Shown here: in pieces, positions 3,148 through 24,598 of the stretch
Layout: each line of letters begins with the position of its first letter
Numbering within the stretch: position 1 is the first letter of the stretch
NCBI GenBank assembly: GCA_004211785.1
Contig: SHBX01000004.1
Location: 62,001-126,000 of the forward strand
Length of the DNA: 64,000 nt
Direction of reading: 5' to 3'
Source: Winogradskyella sp.
GTDB lineage: Bacteria; Bacteroidota; Bacteroidia; Flavobacteriales; Flavobacteriaceae
Made by a program: the position numbers and the translations under genes
Notes under the pieces: generated by a model
The model's input: the letters and a program-made list of their open reading frames with translations, nothing else
The model's database searches: none
Told to the model about the DNA's origin: nothing

Positions 3148-4839
3148 TTATGCTTTAATATCTTTTAACTTTAGTTGTAAACTAATATTACCGTTCCAAT
3201 GGTTTTCATCAATTGTGTAAACCGCGCTAAATGGTTTTTTATTCTGAATTAAATCGATTTTATCTCCTAATCCAAAACCTATAGCAACAATTTTATCATT
3301 ATGAGATTGAGTTGCGGTTAGTCTCAAATGCGTTTTATCTTCACCAACACATTTACCCCAACCTGTATCTCTTAAGTTTTGTGACATAAACGTTGGCGAC
3401 ATATTACCTGGACCAAAAGGTGCAAACTGTTTTAGAATTCGCATTAAACGGTCATCAATTTCATTGAGACTAATTTCTAAATCAATTTTTAGTTCTGGAG
3501 TCAATAATTTTGGATCGATAGTTGCTTCAACAACGTCTTCAAATTTAGATTTGAAAGCTTCGTAATTTTTAGGAAGCAACGTTAAACCCGCAGCGTATTT
3601 ATGGCCTCCAAATTGCTCGATATATTCTGAGCAAGCTTCTAATGCATTATAGACATCAAAGCCTTTTACTGAGCGTGCAGATGCTGCTAATTTATCGCCG
3701 CTTTTAGTAAAAACCAATGTTGGCCTGTGGTAGGTTTCTGTGAGTCTAGATGCTACAATACCAATGACGCCTTTATGCCAATTCTCGTCGTAAACTACAG
3801 TTGTAAATCTCTCTTGTTCGTTTTTTTCTTCAATTTGTACTAAAGCTTCTTCGGTAATGCGTTTATCGGTTTCTCTTCTATCGGTATTGTATTGGTCAAT
3901 ATCAACAGCATATTCTGCTGCAAGATTAAAATCGGTTTCTGTTAGTAAAGTCACTGCGTGGTTTCCGTGTTTCATTCTACCTGCAGCATTAATGCGCGGC
4001 GCTATAATAAAAACCACATCGGTTATGGTGAGTTCATCCTTTTTAACCTCAGCAATAATAGCTTTCATTCCTGGTCTTGGATTACTATTGATAACTTGTA
4101 AGCCAAAATAAGCTAATGCTCTATTTTCGCCTACAATAGGCACAATATCTGCGCCAATTGCTGTGGCGACTAAGTCTAGATATTCAACCAAATCTTCTGG
4201 CGTTTGACCTTCTTTTTTGGCTAAAGCACAAATCAGTTTAAAACCAACACCACAACCACAAAGTTCTTTAAACGGATAGTTGCAGTCGTTTCGTTTTGGG
4301 TCTAAAACTGCTGCTGCTTCGGGAAGTCTTTCAGATGGTCTATGGTGATCGCAAATGATAAAATCGATATCTTTTTCTTTGGCATAGGCGACTTTTTCAA
4401 TGGCTTTGACACCACAATCTAAAGCAATTATTAAGCTAAAACCATTATCCTCAGCAAAGTCAATACCTTCGTAAGAGACACCGTAACCTTCATCATAACG
4501 GTCAGGAATATATGTCGCGACATTTTCGGTTTTCGTTTTTAAATAAGAAGACATTAAAGCAACAGATGTTGTCCCATCAACATCATAATCTCCGTAAACC
4601 AAAATATTTTCAGCATTGTCAATCGCGTTTTCAATTCTCTGAACAGCCTTGTCCATGTCTTTCATTAAAAAAGGGTCATGTAAATCCTCAAAACTTGGTC
4701 TAAAAAACGTCTTGGCAGCTTCGTAAGTCTCAATACCTCGCTGTAGCAATAATGTGGCTACAGTTTCATCAACTTTAAGAGTTTCCTTTAAAGTCTGTAT
4801 CTTTTCAGAGTCTGGTTTTGGTTTAATCGTCCAACGCAT
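3148..4839 (-). CDS. recJ: Single-stranded-DNA-specific exonuclease RecJ
   Basis: 563 residues, the normal length for RecJ. It degrades single-stranded DNA 5'-3' in recombination and repair. The DHH-family phosphoesterase motifs are clear: YGDYDVDG at about 82-89 and CDHHRPSE with DHH at 164-166, followed by the DHHA1 half with APRINAAGRM and GGHKYAAG (the glycine-rich motif). The C-terminal OB-like segment is present. The gene is first in a minus-strand pair with the MFS transporter and 13 bases from the OsmC gene, so it could be read through from that gene. Confidence 0.97.
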   Translation of the reverse strand: MRWTIKPKPDSEKIQTLKETLKVDETVATLLLQRGIETYEAAKTFFRPSFEDLHDPFLMKDMDKAVQRIENAIDNAENILVYGDYDVDGTTSVALMSSYLKTKTENVATYIPDRYDEGYGVSYEGIDFAEDNGFSLIIALDCGVKAIEKVAYAKEKDIDFIICDHHRPSERLPEAAAVLDPKRNDCNYPFKELCGCGVGFKLICALAKKEGQTPEDLVEYLDLVATAIGADIVPIVGENRALAYFGLQVINSNPRPGMKAIIAEVKKDELTITDVVFIIAPRINAAGRMKHGNHAVTLLTETDFNLAAEYAVDIDQYNTDRRETDKRITEEALVQIEEKNEQERFTTVVYDENWHKGVIGIVASRLTETYHRPTLVFTKSGDKLAASARSVKGFDVYNALEACSEYIEQFGGHKYAAGLTLLPKNYEAFKSKFEDVVEATIDPKLLTPELKIDLEISLNEIDDRLMRILKQFAPFGPGNMSPTFMSQNLRDTGWGKCVGEDKTHLRLTATQSHNDKIVAIGFGLGDKIDLIQNKKPFSAVYTIDENHWNGNISLQLKLKDIKA

Positions 4840-8490: not shown

Positions 8491-9061
8491 ATTTCAAAAT
8501 AGCTTTCACCTTATCCTGTAACTCCTGCACAATCAACTCTTCAAACCAAGGGTTTTTAGCACGCCAAAATCTATTGGTTGGTGATGGGTGAGGCACAGGG
8601 AAATATTTAGGCAGATAACTTTTGTACTCACCAACAGTTTCAGTTAACGTACGTTTTGCTTTGTCTTTTAAGTAGTACTTCTGCGCATAAGCACCAATAA
8701 GAATTACCAATTCTACATTAGCCATTTTATCAAATAAGGGTTTGTGCCATTGCGGCGCACATTCTGGTCTTGGTGGTAAATCGCCTGTTTTACCTTTGCC
8801 TGGATAACAAAACCCCATTGGTATGATGGCAAAATTCTTAGTGTTGTAAAATTGGGCGTCAGTAACACCTAGCCATTGTCTTAGCTTTTTGCCACTTTGG
8901 TCGTCCCAAGGAATACCGAACTCATGAACTTTTGTTCCTGGTGCTTGTCCAATAATTACAATTTTGGAATTAATATGAGCTGTTGCCACTGGTCGTGGTC
9001 CTAATGGCAAATGTGCTTTGCAGGTAGTACATTGGCTAATATTATGAAGTAGTTCTTGCAT
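8489..9061 (-). CDS. Uracil-DNA glycosylase family protein
   Basis: 190 residues of the UDG superfamily. Motif A appears as GQAPG at about 38-42, followed by FGIPWDDQSGKKLRQWL, and motif B as HPSPTNRFW near 158-166. Such enzymes excise uracil or other deaminated bases from DNA. Two cysteines (CTTC, 11-14) sit near the N-terminus, but the full iron-sulfur ligand set of family 4 enzymes is not obvious, so the subfamily is uncertain. It lies downstream of rsmI on the same strand. Confidence 0.88.
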   Translation of the reverse strand: MQELLHNISQCTTCKAHLPLGPRPVATAHINSKIVIIGQAPGTKVHEFGIPWDDQSGKKLRQWLGVTDAQFYNTKNFAIIPMGFCYPGKGKTGDLPPRPECAPQWHKPLFDKMANVELVILIGAYAQKYYLKDKAKRTLTETVGEYKSYLPKYFPVPHPSPTNRFWRAKNPWFEELIVQELQDKVKAILK

Positions 9062-16669: not shown

Positions 16670-17593
16670 ATGCTTAAAGTGAAAAACATTCATTTTGCTT
16701 ACGATAAAAGCTCGGTTTTAGAACAGATTTCGTTCTCTCTAAATCCAGGAGAAAATCTAGCTATTATTGGCGAAAGTGGTTCAGGTAAAAGCACCCTTCT
16801 AAAATTGCTTTATGGTGAGTATGATTTATCTCAAGGTGAAATTTTCTGGAAAGAGGAACAAATTCTAGGACCAAAATACAATCTGGTTATTGGTTATGAT
16901 TTTATGAAATATGTCACCCAAGAATTTAATTTGATGCCTTTTATTACTGTTGAAGAGAATATTGGGAAATTTCTGTCTCGTTTTTTCCCAGAAGAAAAGC
17001 AAAAACGTACCGAAGAACTCATTAAAGTTGTTGAGCTTGAAGCTTTTGCTAAAACAAAAGTCAAAAACCTCAGTGGTGGTCAAAAACAACGTGTGGCATT
17101 GGCTAGAGCATTGGCAAAACAACCTGAAATTCTTTTACTTGACGAGCCTTTTAGCCACATTGATAATTTTAAAAAGCAGTCGCTTCGTAGAAGTGTCTTC
17201 AAATACCTAAAAGAAAAAAATATAGCTTGTATTGTTGCCACACACGACAAAAATGATGTTCTTGGGTTTGCTGATGAAATGTTAGTCTTATACAACAAAA
17301 ACGTTATTGCAAAAGACACACCTCAACAACTCTATAGAAATCCACAATTACCATTAATTGCGTCTTTTTTTGGCGAGTTTAATAGTATTAATGGTAAAAT
17401 CTATTATGCGCATCAACTTCAAATAGTAGAAAAATCTGAACTAAAAGGTGTTGTGAAAAGTTCCTATTTTAATGGAGAATCTTGGTTGTTAGAAGTTGAA
17501 CATCACTCAAAATCTGTTTTTATTGAGCATGAAAAAGAGATTGAAAAGGGAACTAAAATAAGTTTTCTCGCTCAGCATAATATAGACCATTAG
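16670..17593 (+). CDS. ABC transporter ATP-binding protein
   Basis: 307 residues. Walker A GESGSGKST is at about 39-47, the signature LSGGQKQR near 138-145, and Walker B ILLLDEPF near 158-165, with the H-loop in VATHDKND. After about residue 220 comes an extra C-terminal region of some 85 residues, as in ATPases of importers with a TOBE-like regulatory domain. No permease gene is adjacent, so the substrate and partner are unknown. Its last 41 bases overlap the convergent WYL fusion gene. Confidence 0.9.
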   Translation: MLKVKNIHFAYDKSSVLEQISFSLNPGENLAIIGESGSGKSTLLKLLYGEYDLSQGEIFWKEEQILGPKYNLVIGYDFMKYVTQEFNLMPFITVEENIGKFLSRFFPEEKQKRTEELIKVVELEAFAKTKVKNLSGGQKQRVALARALAKQPEILLLDEPFSHIDNFKKQSLRRSVFKYLKEKNIACIVATHDKNDVLGFADEMLVLYNKNVIAKDTPQQLYRNPQLPLIASFFGEFNSINGKIYYAHQLQIVEKSELKGVVKSSYFNGESWLLEVEHHSKSVFIEHEKEIEKGTKISFLAQHNIDH

Positions 17594-19277
17594 GTAGCTC
17601 AATAGATGAGAATTCTAAATGTAAAACTCTTCGCCTTTTTTGAACTTTAGAAACTGATGACGCATGCAATAAAAGGGGTTTTAATAATTGAACTCCTCCA
17701 GAGTTAACTTCACTTGTAAAAGGAATAGAACTCTGAGAAATTAACTTAATCTCATCATCATTTAAACGTTTTTTATGTGATCCAGGAATTACTTTTAAAG
17801 CCCCATTCTTTATTGTGGTATCATCTAAGTGAATTCGCATCGAAAATGTGTTTTTTGAAATTTCTTCTGGAGGCCTAACACTTATAACTCCCTTTTTATT
17901 TGTCCAAGAACTAAAATTTTCAGTTTCAATTTTTCTAGTGACATTTATTGGTACGTCTTGATGCCAAGTCACGTACCAATTATCCTGAGGAGACTTATCA
18001 AAATAAATTGCTTTAGTTAAAAAAGTATTCTTATCAATAGACTTAATCAGCTTTTTAAAATTTTTATTAAATAAAATCTCTTTTAGCTCAGGCATTTTCT
18101 TAAGCACTTCTCTCATTCCAAAACCTTGTTCATTATGCTCTTTTATATAAAAATCTAGTTTAGATTTTAGTTTTCTAATGTCTCTTTTAGTGTATACATG
18201 GTTCAAAATTCCAAAACCTTTGTATTCTAGCCGGTTAGAAATTGTTCTTAAGCTCTTATCATTAATTTCGGTTTCATAAGAATCAATAGCGTCATATAAA
18301 CGTTCTTTTATATTTCTCTTTAAACGTTCAGGCGCAATCACTTTTATGCCTTCTCCTAACCCTAATATTTCTTTCTCTAATTCAAAATTTAATTGAACAT
18401 CTAAAGAAATAGTAACTCCATAATTATCACGAGACACTTCTTTTTGTGAATGATGAAAAGGTTTCGTTAGCACATATGGTGCTTGTTTGTGTTTGATGTA
18501 AAGTATTACTGTTTCTGATTCTAAAGTTGGGCTTATAGAAACACCAATGGCTTTTTTATAATACAATTCTGAATCAAAATCAGAGTCTTCTAAAAAAGAT
18601 TTACTGCTTTTTTCGACAGAAATAATCCTATCTAAGGCCAAATTCATAATGCCTTCAGATGCTTTTCTTTTTCCAATAACAAACCATCTGTTTCTATATT
18701 CTTTAAGTAAATAAGGATAAAAATCAAATGTATTTTCTTGTCGCGCTTTAAATGACTGATACGTCATTTTAATGGTCTGTTTTTTAAGTATAAATTGATA
18801 TAATTTATCTAAAAACTCTAAGCCTTTAAGATTATCGTTCTTTTCAAAATCAATCAATGGTTTTTCATGCGTTTTTTGAGTATAAACATGGTCTTCTAAT
18901 TTTTGAACCATAGTGCCTAATTCTGAAAAATGTGAAAACCCTTGAAACTGCTTTAAAAAAGATACCGCTTCTGATAACTTGGCTAAGTCTTGATTAGAAA
19001 TTGGGCTGTTAGTGATACTATAATTCTCATACTCATATTTATAAAATTTACGGTCATATACCACAATAGGCGCATTATAACCTAGCTTATCGCTCCGCAT
19101 CATTTGAATGTCTAGTTGTACCGTACGCTTACTTACATCTACATCTTTACCTTCAAACTCATAAAGTGCATCAGAACAGGCTTCAATCAAGTCATTCAAT
19201 GTCCATTTTCTGTAGTTGTTCTGAAGACATTTATCAATGGTTTTATATCTAATTAACGCATTTTTATTAACTGCCAT
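17553..19277 (-). CDS. WYL-type regulator fused to phytanoyl-CoA-dioxygenase-like domain
   Basis: 574 residues in one uninterrupted frame. The N-terminus (about 8-62) is a winged-helix-like DNA-binding region (WTLNDLIEACSDAL, then SKRTVQLDIQMM). Residues about 150-335 look like a WYL domain and its C-terminal extension (FYPYLLKEYRNRWFVIGKR). From about 345 the sequence becomes a PhyH-type Fe(II)/2-oxoglutarate oxygenase: WHQDVP gives HxD (His439, Asp441), then GALKVIPGSHK at 493-502, LLHAS with distal His538, and Arg549/550 for 2-oxoglutarate. WYL domains usually bind a ligand or nucleic acid. Joining a regulator to an oxygenase is unusual; the oxygenase may act as sensor or effector (inference). 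A copy of the 21-bp element shared with the tRNA-like array and rtcB lies just upstream, so autoregulation is plausible. Confidence 0.82.
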   Translation of the reverse strand: MAVNKNALIRYKTIDKCLQNNYRKWTLNDLIEACSDALYEFEGKDVDVSKRTVQLDIQMMRSDKLGYNAPIVVYDRKFYKYEYENYSITNSPISNQDLAKLSEAVSFLKQFQGFSHFSELGTMVQKLEDHVYTQKTHEKPLIDFEKNDNLKGLEFLDKLYQFILKKQTIKMTYQSFKARQENTFDFYPYLLKEYRNRWFVIGKRKASEGIMNLALDRIISVEKSSKSFLEDSDFDSELYYKKAIGVSISPTLESETVILYIKHKQAPYVLTKPFHHSQKEVSRDNYGVTISLDVQLNFELEKEILGLGEGIKVIAPERLKRNIKERLYDAIDSYETEINDKSLRTISNRLEYKGFGILNHVYTKRDIRKLKSKLDFYIKEHNEQGFGMREVLKKMPELKEILFNKNFKKLIKSIDKNTFLTKAIYFDKSPQDNWYVTWHQDVPINVTRKIETENFSSWTNKKGVISVRPPEEISKNTFSMRIHLDDTTIKNGALKVIPGSHKKRLNDDEIKLISQSSIPFTSEVNSGGVQLLKPLLLHASSVSKVQKRRRVLHLEFSSIELPNGLYYAERENLF

Positions 19278-19315: not shown

Positions 19316-19353
19316 ACTGCGCAAAAAGATTGCGTATTTGTAATTGAGATTTG
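19316..19353 (+). promoter_or_regulatory. Shared 21-bp direct-repeat element, copy A, with -7 motif
   Basis: Two half-sites, CTGCGCAA and TTGCGTA, lie at 19317-19336 separated by AAAGA. A -7-like GAGATTTG begins 13 bases after the TTG of the second half-site. Copy A is identical over 21 bases to copy B at 20990. It sits between the divergent WYL fusion and the unknown 204-residue gene, so it could control both. Confidence 0.7.
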
Positions 19354-20453: not shown

Positions 20454-20984
20454 ATGGACACGAATTTGTTAAACAATTACGTGCTTAAAGCGATAGATGC
20501 TTATCCATATGAGTTAGAAGAAACTGTAGAGAATCTAAACTATGCGTTGTCTTACGAAAGTAATAACGCTTACGCCTTATATTTAATGGGGCGTTTGCAA
20601 GCAGAGCAGTTTGGAGATTACGAAAAAGCCAAGCAATTTTATGCTGAAGCTTTAGCTAACAAAATGGATTTTCATAAAGTGTATCAACACTATATTTTGG
20701 TTTTGATATGGAATGAAGATTACGACGAAGCTCAAAAATTAATAGACTTCGCCTTTACTGTAAAAGGGCTTAACAAAGGCGTTGTGTTTTTATATCAAGG
20801 GCAGCTTTTAGAAAATCTTCAAGACTTTAAAGCCGCTTTAAAAGCGTTGAAACAAGCAAAGCTTTTTGGCTACAACGATGGTTTTATCAGTTATATCAAT
20901 TCTGAAATATCCAGAATTAAAAATAAAATCAAGCCAAAAAAAAGGAAAGCCAAGAAGAAAAAAAAGAAGAAAAAGAAAAAATAA
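20454..20984 (+). CDS. TPR protein with polylysine tail
   Basis: 176 residues. Residues about 15-150 form roughly four TPR-like helical pairs (for example NNAYALYLMGRLQAEQFGDY and KGVVFLYQGQLLENLQDF). The last 20 residues are almost all Lys and Arg, encoded by a long purine run. Such a tail would favour binding to RNA or another polyanion. The gene lies between the short-ORF unit and the tRNA-like array in the RtcB locus. The last codons abut element B, 5 bases after the stop. A role in RNA handling is inferred only from the tail and context. Confidence 0.75.
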   Translation: MDTNLLNNYVLKAIDAYPYELEETVENLNYALSYESNNAYALYLMGRLQAEQFGDYEKAKQFYAEALANKMDFHKVYQHYILVLIWNEDYDEAQKLIDFAFTVKGLNKGVVFLYQGQLLENLQDFKAALKALKQAKLFGYNDGFISYINSEISRIKNKIKPKKRKAKKKKKKKKKK

Positions 20985-20989
20985 TTTTT

Positions 20990-21027
20990 ACTGCGCAAAA
21001 AGATTGCGTAATAGTGTAAAATATTTG
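20990..21027 (+). promoter_or_regulatory. Shared 21-bp element, copy B, promoter of tRNA-like array
   Basis: Bases 20990-21010 are identical to copy A: half-sites CTGCGCAA and TTGCGTAA with a 5-base gap. A -7-like AATATTTG starts at 21020, 13 bases after the TTG, exactly as in copies A and C. The predicted transcript begins near 21033 and enters the array. Confidence 0.72.
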
Positions 21028-21050
21028 CATAGTAATTGGCAGTTAACTGT

Positions 21051-21073
21051 CACACTGAGTGTAGTCGAAGTGT
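21051..21073 (+). repeat. REP-like repeat
   Basis: CACACTGAGTGTAGTCGAAG is a member of the dispersed family, placed at the start of the predicted array transcript. Confidence 0.5.
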
Positions 21074-21116
21074 ATTACAAATGTCTAGATTTTGGAATCA
21101 GACTTTTTAAAGTAGC

Positions 21117-21146
21117 GCTCCGTCAGACACAAGAAGCTGACGGAGC
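21117..21146 (+). ncRNA. Perfect 10-bp stem-loop at the head of the array transcript
   Basis: GCTCCGTCAG (21117-21126) and CTGACGGAGC (21137-21146) pair perfectly around ACACAAGAAG. It lacks a following T run (TTAATAAAAG), so it is more likely a structured leader or a processing site than a terminator. Confidence 0.6.
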
Positions 21147-21174
21147 TTAATAAAAGTTCTTTTAAATTTTAAAC

Positions 21175-21314
21175 GGAAGTATTGAGCAATTGGCTGGCTC
21201 TCGAGATTGAAATGCGTTATACGCATTCAACGATTCTCATTTAATTAAATAAAAATTGTTGAGTTAAAATCTCGTTTCATTGAGAACGTGTAGGTTCGAG
21301 TCCTACTACTTCCA
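21175..21314 (+). ncRNA. tRNA-like element 1, class II fold with 56-nt anticodon-loop insertion
   Basis: The acceptor stem GGAAGTA (21175-21181) pairs perfectly with TACTTCC (21307-21313). The D arm is GAGC/GCTC (21184-21187/21197-21200) with loop AATTGGCTG. The anticodon stem is CGAGA (21202-21206) with TCTCG (21270-21274). A variable arm TTTC/GAGA lies at 21275-21285, and the T arm is GTAGG-TTCGAGT-CCTAC (21290-21306), then discriminator A. Between the anticodon-stem strands are 63 bases instead of 7. Removing 21213-21268 leaves loop TTGAAAA (anticodon GAA if read conventionally) in an 84-nt class II tRNA. The first bases of the insert pair with the loop (TTGAA with TTCAA). RtcB, a known tRNA ligase family, is encoded 1.9 kb downstream. 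No CCA is encoded. Confidence 0.6.
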
Positions 21315-21316
21315 CA

Positions 21317-21406
21317 TCAAGCAAGTCTTGTTAGGCGTTTCGGTATAACGCCATTGTATAAATCCTTACCAAACGGTATGAGGTTTTTATGTCCAACTTG
21401 ACTTGA
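21317..21406 (+). ncRNA. Three-way-junction-like fold between tRNA-like elements
   Basis: TCAAGCAAGT (21317-21326) pairs with ACTTGACTTGA (21396-21406) with one bulge. Inside are a hairpin GGCGTT/AACGCC (21334-21339/21347-21352, 7-nt loop TCGGTAT) and a second, TACC/GGTA (21367-21370/21375-21378), extended by CCT/AGG. The arrangement resembles a tRNA-like branch fold but lacks a canonical T loop. Confidence 0.4.
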
Positions 21407-21475
21407 AGGCTTTGATTATTAGCCAAATAAATAATCTCACTCTATGTGTCATGGGTTCGACTCCCATTTTCTTCA
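21405..21475 (+). ncRNA. tRNA-like element 2, incomplete
   Basis: A canonical T arm is present: ATGGG-TTCGACT-CCCAT (21451-21467), followed by TTTCTTC and A. The 5' side GAAG (21405-21408) can pair with CTTC only over four bases. GATTATT and AATAATC (21414-21420/21430-21436) form an anticodon-like arm with a 9-nt loop, and CAC/GTG a short variable arm. No D arm is seen. It is either a degenerate tRNA or a specialised mimic. Confidence 0.45.
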
Positions 21476-21478
21476 AAA

Positions 21479-21541
21479 GGGGAAATAGCTCAGTTGGTTA
21501 GAGCAATAGAAATTCAATTAAGAAGGTTCGACTCCTTCCCA
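21479..21541 (+). ncRNA. tRNA-like element 3, anticodon arm collapsed
   Basis: The 5' half is fully tRNA-like: TA at positions 8-9, then D arm GCTC-AGTTGGTTA-GAGC (21488-21504). A T loop follows after only 17 bases (GAAGG-TTCGACT-CCTTC, 21522-21538), so a real anticodon arm is missing. The acceptor can pair only as GGGAA (21480-21484) with TTCCC (21536-21540), which competes with the T stem. Confidence 0.45.
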
Positions 21542-21547
21542 CAAAAC

Positions 21548-21637
21548 GTGGTGGCAGAACGGTAATGCACTGTATTATAACTACAGCAATTGATAAAGAA
21601 GGGCAACTTTAAAAATGCCCACCAGAAGTGCGCCACA
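21548..21637 (+). ncRNA. tRNA-like element 4 with intact anticodon arm
   Basis: GTGGTG (21548-21553) pairs with CGCCAC (21631-21636, one T-G pair) as acceptor. The D arm is GCA-GAACGGTAA-TGC (21554-21568). The anticodon arm is perfect, CTGTA-TTATAAC-TACAG (21570-21586), and would read anticodon ATA. The T arm is replaced by GGGCA/TGCCC with a 10-nt loop (21601-21620) that lacks the TTCGANT sequence. Confidence 0.45.
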
Positions 21638-21692
21638 CTTAACATGGCAATAAAACGTTGCAAAAGGCGACTGGTCAATACAAATTGTTGTT

Positions 21693-21739
21693 GCGGCAGT
21701 CTAGAAAACACCTTGAAATACAATAGCATTTCGAGCCGC
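21693..21739 (+). ncRNA. Possible fifth array element
   Basis: GCGGC (21693-21697) and GCCGC (21735-21739) enclose a hairpin TTGAAAT/ATTTCGA placed like a T arm next to an acceptor stem. There is no D or anticodon arm. It is the weakest member of the array. Confidence 0.25.
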
Positions 21740-21796
21740 TTTAAATGTTCTTTTAAAGATTAATTTTTCAGTATCTCTGTTTGAAAAATTTCAAAC
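21739..21796 (+). repeat. Two A/T-rich hairpins after the array
   Basis: CTTTAAA/TTTAAAG near 21739-21758, followed by ATTAATTTTT, could end the array transcript. GTTTGAAA/TTTCAAAC (21779-21796) follows with a two-base loop. Confidence 0.4.
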
Positions 21797-21906
21797 TAAA
21801 ATTGATTAATCATCTGCAAAACAATTTTTAAAACACTTTAAATCCATCGTATTTCCGTAGTTGAAAAGATGGTTGTCTTTTGCTTTGTTTTACTATAGAA
21901 TAGTCA

Positions 21907-21973
21907 TTTCAGAATACTGAAACTCTATTATAAATGTTTAATCGTTCTGACTAAAAAAAGAAAACATCAGAAC
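21907..21973 (+). promoter_or_regulatory. Stem-loops in the slipin leader
   Basis: TTTCAG-AATA-CTGAAA (21907-21922) and GTTCTGA/TCAGAAC (21944-21950/21967-21973, 16-nt purine-rich loop) lie just before the slipin ATG at 21990. They are likely 5'-UTR structures; their role is unknown. Confidence 0.4.
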
Positions 21974-21989
21974 ACAAAAATTAGAAATC

Positions 21990-23090
21990 ATGAAGAGAGT
22001 AAGAATTCATGCAGGAAACGTAGGTTTAGTTTTTAAAAATGGTAATTACAAATGTGTAATTACTCAAGGTTCACATTGGTTAAGCTTTAACGAACGTGTC
22101 ATAAACTATAGCTTAACCGCAGCATTTAATGCGCCTAAAGCTTTGGATATCTTACTAAAAGACCAAGCTTTAGCAAATATGTTACATGTCGTAGACATTG
22201 CCGATAACCAGATTGTTTTGGTATACAGCAATGGTAACTTTAAGCATGTGTTGCATGCTGGTCGTCACGCGTACTGGAACGGATTAATGGAGTACAAATT
22301 TATTACGGTAAATTTTAATGATATTAATATCCCAGACACAATTGACAAAGCTTTATATAACAACGCCGCTTTAAGAGGATACATTAGAACCTTTGAGGTT
22401 GCCGCTTACGAAAAAGCAGTATTGATTGTAGATGATACCTTTGATAAAATCTTAGAACATGGCACATACCATTTCTGGAGAAATAACCAAACTATCAAAA
22501 TTGCAAAAGCAGATTTACGCCAGTTGCAATTAGAAGTCGCTGGTCAAGAATTATTGACTAAGGATAAAGCTACAGTTCGTATTAACTTTTACGCACAATA
22601 CAAGGTTACAGATATTGAAACTGCGTTAATGCATAACAAAGATTACGAAAAGCAATTGTACACAAGCTTGCAGTTAGCATTAAGAGCTTTTGTTGGTGGT
22701 TTTACTTTAGACGAATTGTTAGAGCAAAAAGACCAAATTGCCAAAGCAGTTTTAGATGCTGTAAAGACGCAAGCCAACACATTGGGTGTCGTTGTTTTAC
22801 ATGCAGGAATGCGAGATATTATTTTGCCTGGTGACATGAAAAATATTATGAACCACGTATTAATTGCTCAAAAAACAGCGCAAGCTAATGTTATTACAAG
22901 ACGTGAAGAAACAGCGTCTACACGTAGCTTGTTAAATACAGCAAAATTAATGGAAGACAACGATATGTTGTTTAAATTAAAAGAGATGGAATACGTAGAA
23001 AAGATTGCCGACAAAATTGGCGAAATTACAGTCTCTGGAAACGGAAACGTAATTAAACAATTAAAGGATATTTTCTCGGTGAATAAGTAG
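21990..23090 (+). CDS. Slipin / SPFH (band 7) domain protein
   Basis: 366 residues. The central part (about 125-290) has the SPFH/band-7 pattern, with ELLTKDKATVRINFYAQYKVTDIE, RAFVGGFTLDELLEQKDQI and LGVVVLHAGMRDIILPGDMK. The C-terminus is a helical, probably coiled-coil region (ITRREETASTRSLLNTAKLM). No N-terminal membrane helix is seen, unlike typical slipins, so it may be cytosolic or peripherally membrane bound; two repeat-like segments precede the SPFH part. Slipin genes are known neighbours of rtcB in bacterial RNA-repair loci. It has its own terminator and so is probably not co-transcribed with rtcB. Confidence 0.85.
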   Translation: MKRVRIHAGNVGLVFKNGNYKCVITQGSHWLSFNERVINYSLTAAFNAPKALDILLKDQALANMLHVVDIADNQIVLVYSNGNFKHVLHAGRHAYWNGLMEYKFITVNFNDINIPDTIDKALYNNAALRGYIRTFEVAAYEKAVLIVDDTFDKILEHGTYHFWRNNQTIKIAKADLRQLQLEVAGQELLTKDKATVRINFYAQYKVTDIETALMHNKDYEKQLYTSLQLALRAFVGGFTLDELLEQKDQIAKAVLDAVKTQANTLGVVVLHAGMRDIILPGDMKNIMNHVLIAQKTAQANVITRREETASTRSLLNTAKLMEDNDMLFKLKEMEYVEKIADKIGEITVSGNGNVIKQLKDIFSVNK

Positions 23091-23137: not shown

Positions 23138-23175
23138 ATTGCGCAAAAACATTGCGTAATACACTACAATATTTG
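23138..23175 (+). promoter_or_regulatory. Shared 21-bp element, copy C, promoter of rtcB
   Basis: Half-sites TTGCGCAA (23139-23146) and TTGCGTAA (23152-23159) match copies A and B at 19 of 21 bases. A -7-like AATATTTG (23168-23175) follows with the same 13-base gap. TTGCGCAA is itself a palindrome. The ATG of rtcB is 22 bases beyond. Confidence 0.75.

Positions 23176-23191: not shown

Positions 23192-24598
<1,407 letters not shown>

Follow-up and report, generated by a model that had tools for sequence, protein, structure and literature searches.

The textbook case of an RNA-protein pair encoded next to bacterial RNA-repair genes is Ro60 with Y RNA; other repair loci carry slipin. In Salmonella, RtcR turns on rsr-yrlBA-rtcBA upon damaged tRNAs, and YrlA has a tRNA-like domain (parts of PMC7790460). 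The Anabaena repressor TrcR controls a tRNA operon together with rtcB and a slipin gene, and represses them until translation is under stress (parts of PMC10272220). GOLLD RNA, which has been described from phages and prophages, assembles as a 14-mer cage (parts of PMC12286853). Described here is an RNA located directly upstream of a slipin gene in a 64,000-nucleotide (nt) stretch of Winogradskyella sp. DNA (contig SHBX01000004.1, positions 62,001 to 126,000), the whole of which is called the window; positions given without a locus label refer to it. The gene order is TPR gene, region 21150-21750, slipin, then rtcB. It is near certain that 21317 to about 21723 is a real RNA, conserved and structured as one molecule, and not a row of decayed tRNAs. 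The initial annotation had read the region as a tandem array of degenerate tRNA-like RNAs; only its unit 1 proves degenerate, the rest being one RNA under selection.

Comparison of homologous loci demonstrates a predicted RNA, some 330-410 nt long and directly upstream of slipin, that contains two permuted tRNA-shaped domains. The order of parts is 5' domain, pseudoknot, first tRNA-like domain (TLD1), second tRNA-like domain (TLD2), probable second pseudoknot and hairpin. RNA models were built on the 5' domain (R2) and on TLD1 (R1). The parts are as follows.

21317..21406, + strand, 5' domain, a long stem P1 enclosing hairpins P2 (21335-21351) and P3 (21358-21390); R2 model, 126.9 bits.
21408..21436, + strand, pseudoknot 1 (H-type), GGC/GCC with GATTATT/AATAATC; covariation.
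21441..21510, + strand, TLD1, permuted; R1 model, 82.6 bits, and covariation.
21514..21593, + strand, TLD2, permuted; structure alignment and covariation.
21595..21620, + strand, probable pseudoknot 2, AAAG/CTTT with GGGCA/TGCCC; pseudoknot finder and inspection by eye.
21626..21640, + strand, hairpin AAGTG-CGCCA-CACTT; by eye.
21641..21723, + strand, 3' part, sequence kept among close relatives; alignment.

TLD1 begins with the 3' strand of the anticodon stem, the T arm (21451-21467) and the acceptor stem (21468-21474/21479-21485, with an AAAA cap), followed by the D arm (21488-21504) and the 5' strand of the anticodon stem. It is without a closed anticodon loop; its acceptor stem is closed by a cap or a linker, depending on the locus. 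TLD2 comprises a T arm (21522-21538), a capped acceptor stem (21539-21542/21548-21551), a D arm (21554-21568), an anticodon-like arm (21570-21586) and a weaker closing stem, in which 75.8% of cells pair. The tRNA parts named in the initial annotation are all present: D arms at 21184 and 21488-21504, T arms at 21290, 21451 and 21522, the anticodon arm at 21570-21586 and the acceptor stem of unit 1. They exceed chance, since T arms recur at similar distances from the slipin start in relatives and the stems covary beyond all 500 shuffles. Its division into four units holds only for the parts: the T arm at 21451 and the D arm at 21488 belong to one domain, TLD1, and the T arm at 21522, the D arm at 21554-21568 and the anticodon arm at 21570 to the next, TLD2. 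Each unit had seemed to lack something because the sequence of T arm, capped acceptor stem and D arm is permuted. The tRNA mimicry it suggested is retained, in the form of two tRNA-shaped domains.

The loci compared comprise 26 named loci from a scan of slipin relatives and 30 loci from a genus search, in which slipin was found in 32 of 68 genomes; labels such as L007 designate individual slipin loci. With the window, the 56 loci give 57 upstream regions, of which 52 are left once identical ones are removed. The motif GNG-TTTCNGTATAG-CNC is present in 52/52 regions with at most 2 mismatches (4 permitted), and two T arms lie 3' of it in 50.

Three alignments were used: A1 (5' domain; 40 of 52 sequences), A2 (TLD1; 42 of the 50 with two T arms) and A3 (TLD2; 31 of 50). 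A1 and A2 omit mainly near-duplicates; A2 also omits L055, which has an extra arm. In the 5' domain with pseudoknot 1, 91.0% of cells pair and both sides change at 23 of 37 pairs, against a shuffle mean of 13.2 with 0/500 reaching 23 (here and below the shuffle tests are inflated by relatedness of the sequences); slid controls are 36-46% paired. In TLD1, 95.7% of cells pair and both sides change at 18 of 21 pairs (shuffles reaching the observed value, 0/500; slid controls, 41-51%). In TLD2, both sides change at 19 of 30 pairs (0/500 shuffles; slid controls, 28-43%) and 94.5% of cells pair, a value that describes Flavobacteriaceae-type rows, since A3 also omits distant or odd rows, namely L023, L024, L025, L028, L030, L031 and a number of others whose TLD2 differs. 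Columns 18/32 of the TLD1 T stem hold UA 24, CG 15, AU 1, GC 1 and GU 1, a mix of pair types that one inherited change is unlikely to explain. Covarying stems in homologues, set beforehand as the test of function, are thus found in the 5' domain, TLD1 and TLD2. The stem types of pseudoknot 2 change together across loci by eye.

The anticodon-like triplets of TLD2 vary widely; a pattern with pyrimidine-U required at loop positions 1-2 matches the arm in 46/50 loci, a few of these matches (e.g. L031) being doubtful. In many loci the acceptor stem is capped with a few nt, and such copies cannot mature into tRNAs. An extra hairpin, TGGA-loop-TCCA, lies 3' of TLD2 in 38/50 loci; its loop resembles an anticodon loop.

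The RNA follows the slipin gene closely. In the genus, R2 has a single match in each of the same 32 of 68 genomes that carry slipin, and no match in the remaining 36. Among 345 genomes of the phylum, R2 gives 15 matches, all directly upstream of slipin. Slipin is present in 19 of these genomes, with the RNA (R2 or R1) upstream in 19/19; in the four beyond the 15 of R2, R1 matches just upstream at 57.0, 55.3, 54.5 and 32.1 bits. The RNA is 5' of slipin on the same strand in every locus examined, and in Flavobacteriaceae its conserved part ends about 270 nt before the slipin start. Slipin is broken and the RNA kept in two Winogradskyella records (L019:5001-6098 and L022; in-frame stop, and gene in two frames).

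Unit 1 of the initial annotation lies outside this RNA.

21175..21315, + strand, interrupted tRNA-Tyr; alignment with six relatives, and ARAGORN with introns allowed.

The unit has a 7-bp acceptor stem (21175-21181/21307-21313), a D arm GAGC/GCTC at 21184 and a T arm at 21290. In the alignment, acceptor, D, anticodon and T stems are kept and 63 nt (21207-21269) replace the 7-nt anticodon loop. With introns allowed, ARAGORN calls one tRNA at 21175-21315 with a 56-nt insert; by default it calls no tRNA in the region. As judged from the alignment, unit 1 is a separate, broken tRNA-Tyr, intact in relatives; tRNA-Tyr(gta) ends within about 15 nt of the RNA in 8 of the 26 named loci. The insert could be an intron sealed by the adjacent RtcB; damage is the plainer reading. 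A repeated mobile element is ruled out, no second copy of the 56-nt insert being found in the genome. Ahead of the tRNA-Tyr stands AAAAGTTCTTT (21152-21162), which is kept in L007 and L019 and resembles a boxA antitermination element.

The remaining features of the locus are listed below.

17553..19277, - strand, WYL/WCX-domain protein gene with PhyH-like C-terminal part; Pfam, homologues near 10 of the 26 named loci.
19317..19337, + strand, operator-like near-palindrome, site 1, by the divergent WYL gene; 2 mismatches.
20454..20984, + strand, TPR-repeat protein gene, immediately upstream of the tRNA/RNA region; Pfam.
20991..21011, + strand, operator-like near-palindrome, site 2, ahead of the tRNA/RNA unit; 1 mismatch, same element in relatives.
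21990..23090, + strand, slipin gene (SPFH / Band 7); Pfam, PDB profile and fold comparison.
23139..23159, + strand, operator-like near-palindrome, site 3, ahead of rtcB; 0 mismatches.
23198..24598, + strand, rtcB, RNA ligase gene; Pfam.

The near-palindrome TRCGCAA-N5-TTGCGYA is present in 19 of the 26 named loci, often preceding the RNA/tRNA unit and rtcB or rlaP, and was not found in the other 7; the reversed pattern gives 1 match in all 26. The genome containing the window has 4 sites at up to 3 mismatches, 3 of them within the locus and the single remaining one weak. A control element common to the RNA unit and rtcB, as first proposed, is thereby recovered in relatives also. The WYL protein is a candidate regulator of the locus, and near-palindrome and WYL gene together make a candidate WYL regulon. 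With PADLOC, the regulator matches just CRISPR-associated WYL or Cas3c profiles. Its PhyH-like (2-oxoglutarate oxygenase) part is matched in L007, L008, L019 and L020 and unmatched in six other loci with the WYL part.

The proposed link with RNA repair extends beyond the RtcB of the window: within the fetched stretches, RtcB is encoded in 17 and an RlaP-type nucleotidyltransferase in 6 (one cut) of the 26 named loci, either one in 20. Upstream tRNA genes occur in 19 of these loci, numbering 8 to 19 in 7 of them. GOLLD stands directly upstream of the RNA at L016:3561-4038 (Rfam, 133.1 bits, E 5.1e-35) and L018:3423-3909 (128.0 bits, E 1.7e-33), both under the threshold of 150. A profile from these two brings the total to at least 14 unique loci, 12 of them further ones, a lower bound given the short flanks; at L015, 60 nt only separate GOLLD from the RNA. 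These GOLLD copies are chromosomal, between tRNA arrays and the slipin-linked RNA. By eye, the L016 copy itself includes a permuted set of T arm, capped stem and D arm near 3631-3690, where the Rfam GOLLD consensus is unpaired. Flavo-1 RNA (RF01705) occurs between slipin and rtcB, mostly on the minus strand (L007:6131-6213, L008:6141-6216, L010:6130-6201 and 8942-9016).

The Band 7 domain of slipin is matched by Pfam at 1.8e-29, and its SPFH fold is supported by PDB profile and structure comparison. The model (mean pLDDT 78.4, low beyond residue 280) has three five-stranded beta units, followed by the SPFH domain and one long helix. In the PDB it is matched best by stomatin and by assemblies of the HflK/C type; on the predicted fold, slipin belongs with ring- or cage-forming SPFH proteins. 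Over residues 3 or 4 to 305, the full model can be aligned with major vault protein (MVP; four entries, Z 11.4-11.9, root-mean-square deviation 7.2-8.3). Residues 1-175 alone give no row at Z 5 (SPFH proteins up to 4.9, MVP 2.6-2.8) and no Foldseek match at E <= 0.001. Direct vault kinship, suggested by the full model, is not upheld by the N-terminal part, which alone does not single out MVP; vault kinship may serve as an analogy only.

In Rfam searches (E <= 10), YrlA (RF02553) matches at 21420-21537 with 39.3 bits, below the 69-bit gathering threshold, and tRNA (RF00005) with 25.1 and 17.9 bits, below the 29-bit threshold; the model check proposed at the outset thus yields weak matches, all under threshold. 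No Rfam family matches the 5' domain, and GOLLD (RF02032) has no match in 20990-21990. On the RNA of relatives the YrlA model scores 29.9-45.6 bits in 9 of 10 scanned; for ordinary tandem tRNAs its scores go up to 28.5-30.1 bits. A plain row of tRNA genes is rejected as a reading, with none called by ARAGORN by default and Rfam tRNA under threshold. A Ro60 (TROVE) gene, reported as lacking from the start, has 0 matches in the genome of the window (assembly 89.7% complete) and is found in 1 of 299 family genomes, namely G079 (loci L005/L006). The suspected likeness to Y RNA is seen in the permuted module inside a closing stem. The RNA may work like a Y RNA; it is not classed as one, or as a plain YrlA member, the score lying below threshold and Ro60 not being found. 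Searches of one open library brought up no account of an RNA lying upstream of slipin.

Beyond Bacteroidota, the 5' domain is found in one Chlorobiota metagenome-assembled genome (L024). A wider search used full-length slipin homologues from a plasmid collection. tRNA-like pieces precede slipin in 5 of the first 5 examined, with R1 scores of 36.8 bits (Photobacterium), 34.1 (Subdoligranulum), 27.0 (Burkholderia stagnalis), 19.7 (E. coli) and 15.0 (Citrobacter; E 0.026), and in three more Burkholderia (by eye and ARAGORN). Position and content suggest that these leaders may be homologous to the RNA of Bacteroidota. The units of Photobacterium and Burkholderia follow the canonical order but have odd anticodon arms; ARAGORN calls 'tRNA-???' in L092, L094, L095 and L096, tRNA-Met in L094 and tRNA-Phe in L097, and given the last two the units may be real tRNAs. 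In E. coli and Citrobacter just a T arm and capped stem are left.

L091:5690-5997 (also L098), E. coli element, T arm plus capped stem, upstream of slipin.

In one E. coli variant a T-stem pair is changed on both sides. The E. coli stretch upstream of slipin is matched in 1624 of 5426 complete genomes, at one chromosomal place each, with 0 annotated features under it among the 25 matches listed; slipin starts within about 150 nt of the element. In Citrobacter, rtcR is divergent and adjacent to slipin, and a nucleotidyltransferase gene lies 3' of slipin; E. coli has the same slipin-nucleotidyltransferase pair without adjacent rtcR. By eye, a sigma54-like -24/-12 sequence precedes the element in E. 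coli, Citrobacter and Burkholderia. In one strain a zeta-toxin-family gene is near the E. coli element. A phage origin is rejected both for the RNA (exact P2-motif pattern, 0 matches in viral contigs) and for slipin (1 weak match in a phage collection, covering 33%).

Tentatively, at just under an even chance, the RNA is taken as partner of a slipin-based RNA-repair particle that would resemble Ro60/Y RNA in action without being Ro60/Y RNA. Elements of Salmonella rsr-yrlBA-rtcBA and of the Anabaena TrcR system stand together here, which suggests a stress-induced repair unit. The unit would be switched on under stress by a regulator, which would be the WYL protein in the window and RtcR in enterobacteria. 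The RNA would stay stably associated with slipin, a protein whose relatives in the SPFH family form rings or cages at membranes, and the tRNA-shaped domains would let tRNA-binding factors dock. The particle would thus bring damaged tRNAs together with the enzymes RtcB and RlaP that repair them; neighbouring tRNA genes would supply spare tRNAs refilling the pool, and RtcB or RlaP would mend broken ones. Slipin with the tRNA-shaped RNA would form a meeting place, slipin taking the role of Ro60 beside a Y RNA-like partner. This scaffold role is the likeliest of several, though its lead over a cis leader or a decoy is not a firm one. Covariation, slipin linkage, repair neighbours, upstream tRNA genes, the shared operator, capped acceptor stems, the tRNA-like pieces ahead of slipin in five further genera, and the parallels with YrlA and Anabaena speak for it.

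Several points weigh against this reading or limit it. Binding of RNA by slipin is itself putative, and the constant place 5' of slipin is explained equally well by a cis leader. The structures were drawn on rows of the same alignments, which favours them over the slid controls. The pseudoknot-2 finder is positive in 48/52 loci with a high null rate (61/208 shuffles), and part of the 48 owe this to pairing at another place than the intended one. The Roseivirga loci L029 and L032 show one T arm instead of two, and the TGGA-loop-TCCA hairpin is absent from the window. R2 was partly built from genus loci, so that the genus run mainly tests extra copies and slipin-less genomes; in the phylum R2 found 15 of the 19 slipin genomes, the remaining four, two with weak R2 matches, needing R1. 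R1 responds to ordinary tRNA pairs in tandem as well (40.1 bits at another place of the same genome), so its matches outside Bacteroidota show tRNA-like units, not homology to TLD1. R2 has no match in the five non-Bacteroidota loci, and the 5' domain was not found beyond Bacteroidota and the one Chlorobiota genome. The YrlA model matches at E <= 10 also in 13 of 14 control genomes, none above threshold. Neither RtcB nor RlaP is in the fetched stretch of 6 of the 26 named loci (L014, at a contig end, L018, L021, L023, L030 and L031). The three N-terminal beta units of slipin resemble other SPFH proteins, weakly.

Among the rivals, a cis leader of the slipin mRNA is unlikely, yet the one to be taken most seriously: the tRNA-like domains would sense the tRNA pool and set slipin expression, perhaps through competition for enzymes that bind, process or cleave tRNA. 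The unvarying position and strand agree with it, as do the terminator-like scan, which found none between RNA and slipin, and in E. coli the sigma54-like promoter (by eye) before an element so close to slipin. It accords poorly with the gap of about 270 nt in Flavobacteriaceae; two whole tRNA-like domains exceed the needs of a simple sensor, and no alternative pairing masking the ribosome site was noticed, though no search aimed at such pairing was made. Rather doubtful is a decoy, in which the tRNA-shaped domains would occupy tRNA-cleaving toxins or anticodon nucleases and shield tRNAs while RtcB mends. The same role is proposed for YrlA in parts of PMC7790460, and the freely varying triplets of the anticodon-like arms (46/50 loci, pattern-based, a few doubtful) would suit it. 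TLD1, without a closed anticodon loop, would not, and strict slipin linkage would be unneeded. No nuclease is known at the locus, which also counts against it.

Permuted tRNA genes occur in some algae and archaea, and the domains might be precursors cut and re-joined by RtcB into working tRNAs. The permuted order of parts, the adjacent RtcB and a linker ACCA or ACA after the acceptor strand in L015, L016, L026 and L059 (by eye) speak for this reading; it is nonetheless very improbable, with many acceptor stems capped by a few nt, the anticodon triplet unconserved and TLD1 lacking the loop altogether. That the segment consists of functionless relics of a tRNA array can hardly be entertained. 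Relatives do have ordinary tRNAs just upstream, and unit 1 is such a broken gene, but both sides change at most pairs, 0/500 shuffles equal this, and the RNA is kept with slipin across the phylum. Drift of dead tRNAs is contradicted by covariation for 21317-21593 and holds only for unit 1.

With the slipin partnership preferred, slipin gains a closely linked RNA with two tRNA-shaped domains as a testable partner, and the stretch matched in complete E. coli genomes (1624/5426) offers a foothold in that species. The GOLLD RNA cage is placed on chromosomes beside tRNA arrays, the slipin-linked RNA and RNA-repair enzymes. It is possible, though on balance doubtful, that a class of tRNA-mimic RNAs over several phyla forms the RNA subunit of a membrane-bound, Ro- or vault-like slipin (SPFH) repair particle. 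If so, the domains would be canonical in Photobacterium and Burkholderia, permuted in Bacteroidota and reduced in E. coli and Citrobacter, and would illustrate a route by which tandem tRNAs can give rise to permuted modules of the kind seen in Y RNA.

Compared with known systems, the RNA resembles GOLLD in being large, structured and adjoining tRNA arrays; GOLLD is a different RNA, yet lies directly upstream of it in some loci. Like the eukaryotic vault (MVP plus vault RNA), the locus encodes an SPFH protein with N-terminal beta units; this protein matches stomatin and HflK/C better than MVP. With the Anabaena trn operon and TrcR regulon the locus would share a tRNA operon, rtcB and slipin under one stress control; in Anabaena the genes are scattered, the repressor is of RHH and not WYL type, and the parts of PMC10272220 consulted do not mention a tRNA-like RNA. 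The enterobacterial RtcR-rtcBA and RtcR-slipin-nucleotidyltransferase operons likewise combine slipin with a repair enzyme, a regulator (Citrobacter) and a tRNA-like piece before slipin; unlike the Bacteroidota RNA, their leaders consist of T arm and capped stem only, and the 5' domain was not found there. YrlA of rsr-yrlBA-rtcBA operons likewise adjoins RNA-repair genes and holds, within a closing stem, a permuted module of T arm, capped acceptor stem and D arm. Unlike YrlA, the slipin-linked RNA has two tRNA-like domains, a 5' domain and pseudoknots, and its partner gene is not that of Ro60 (Rsr) but slipin.

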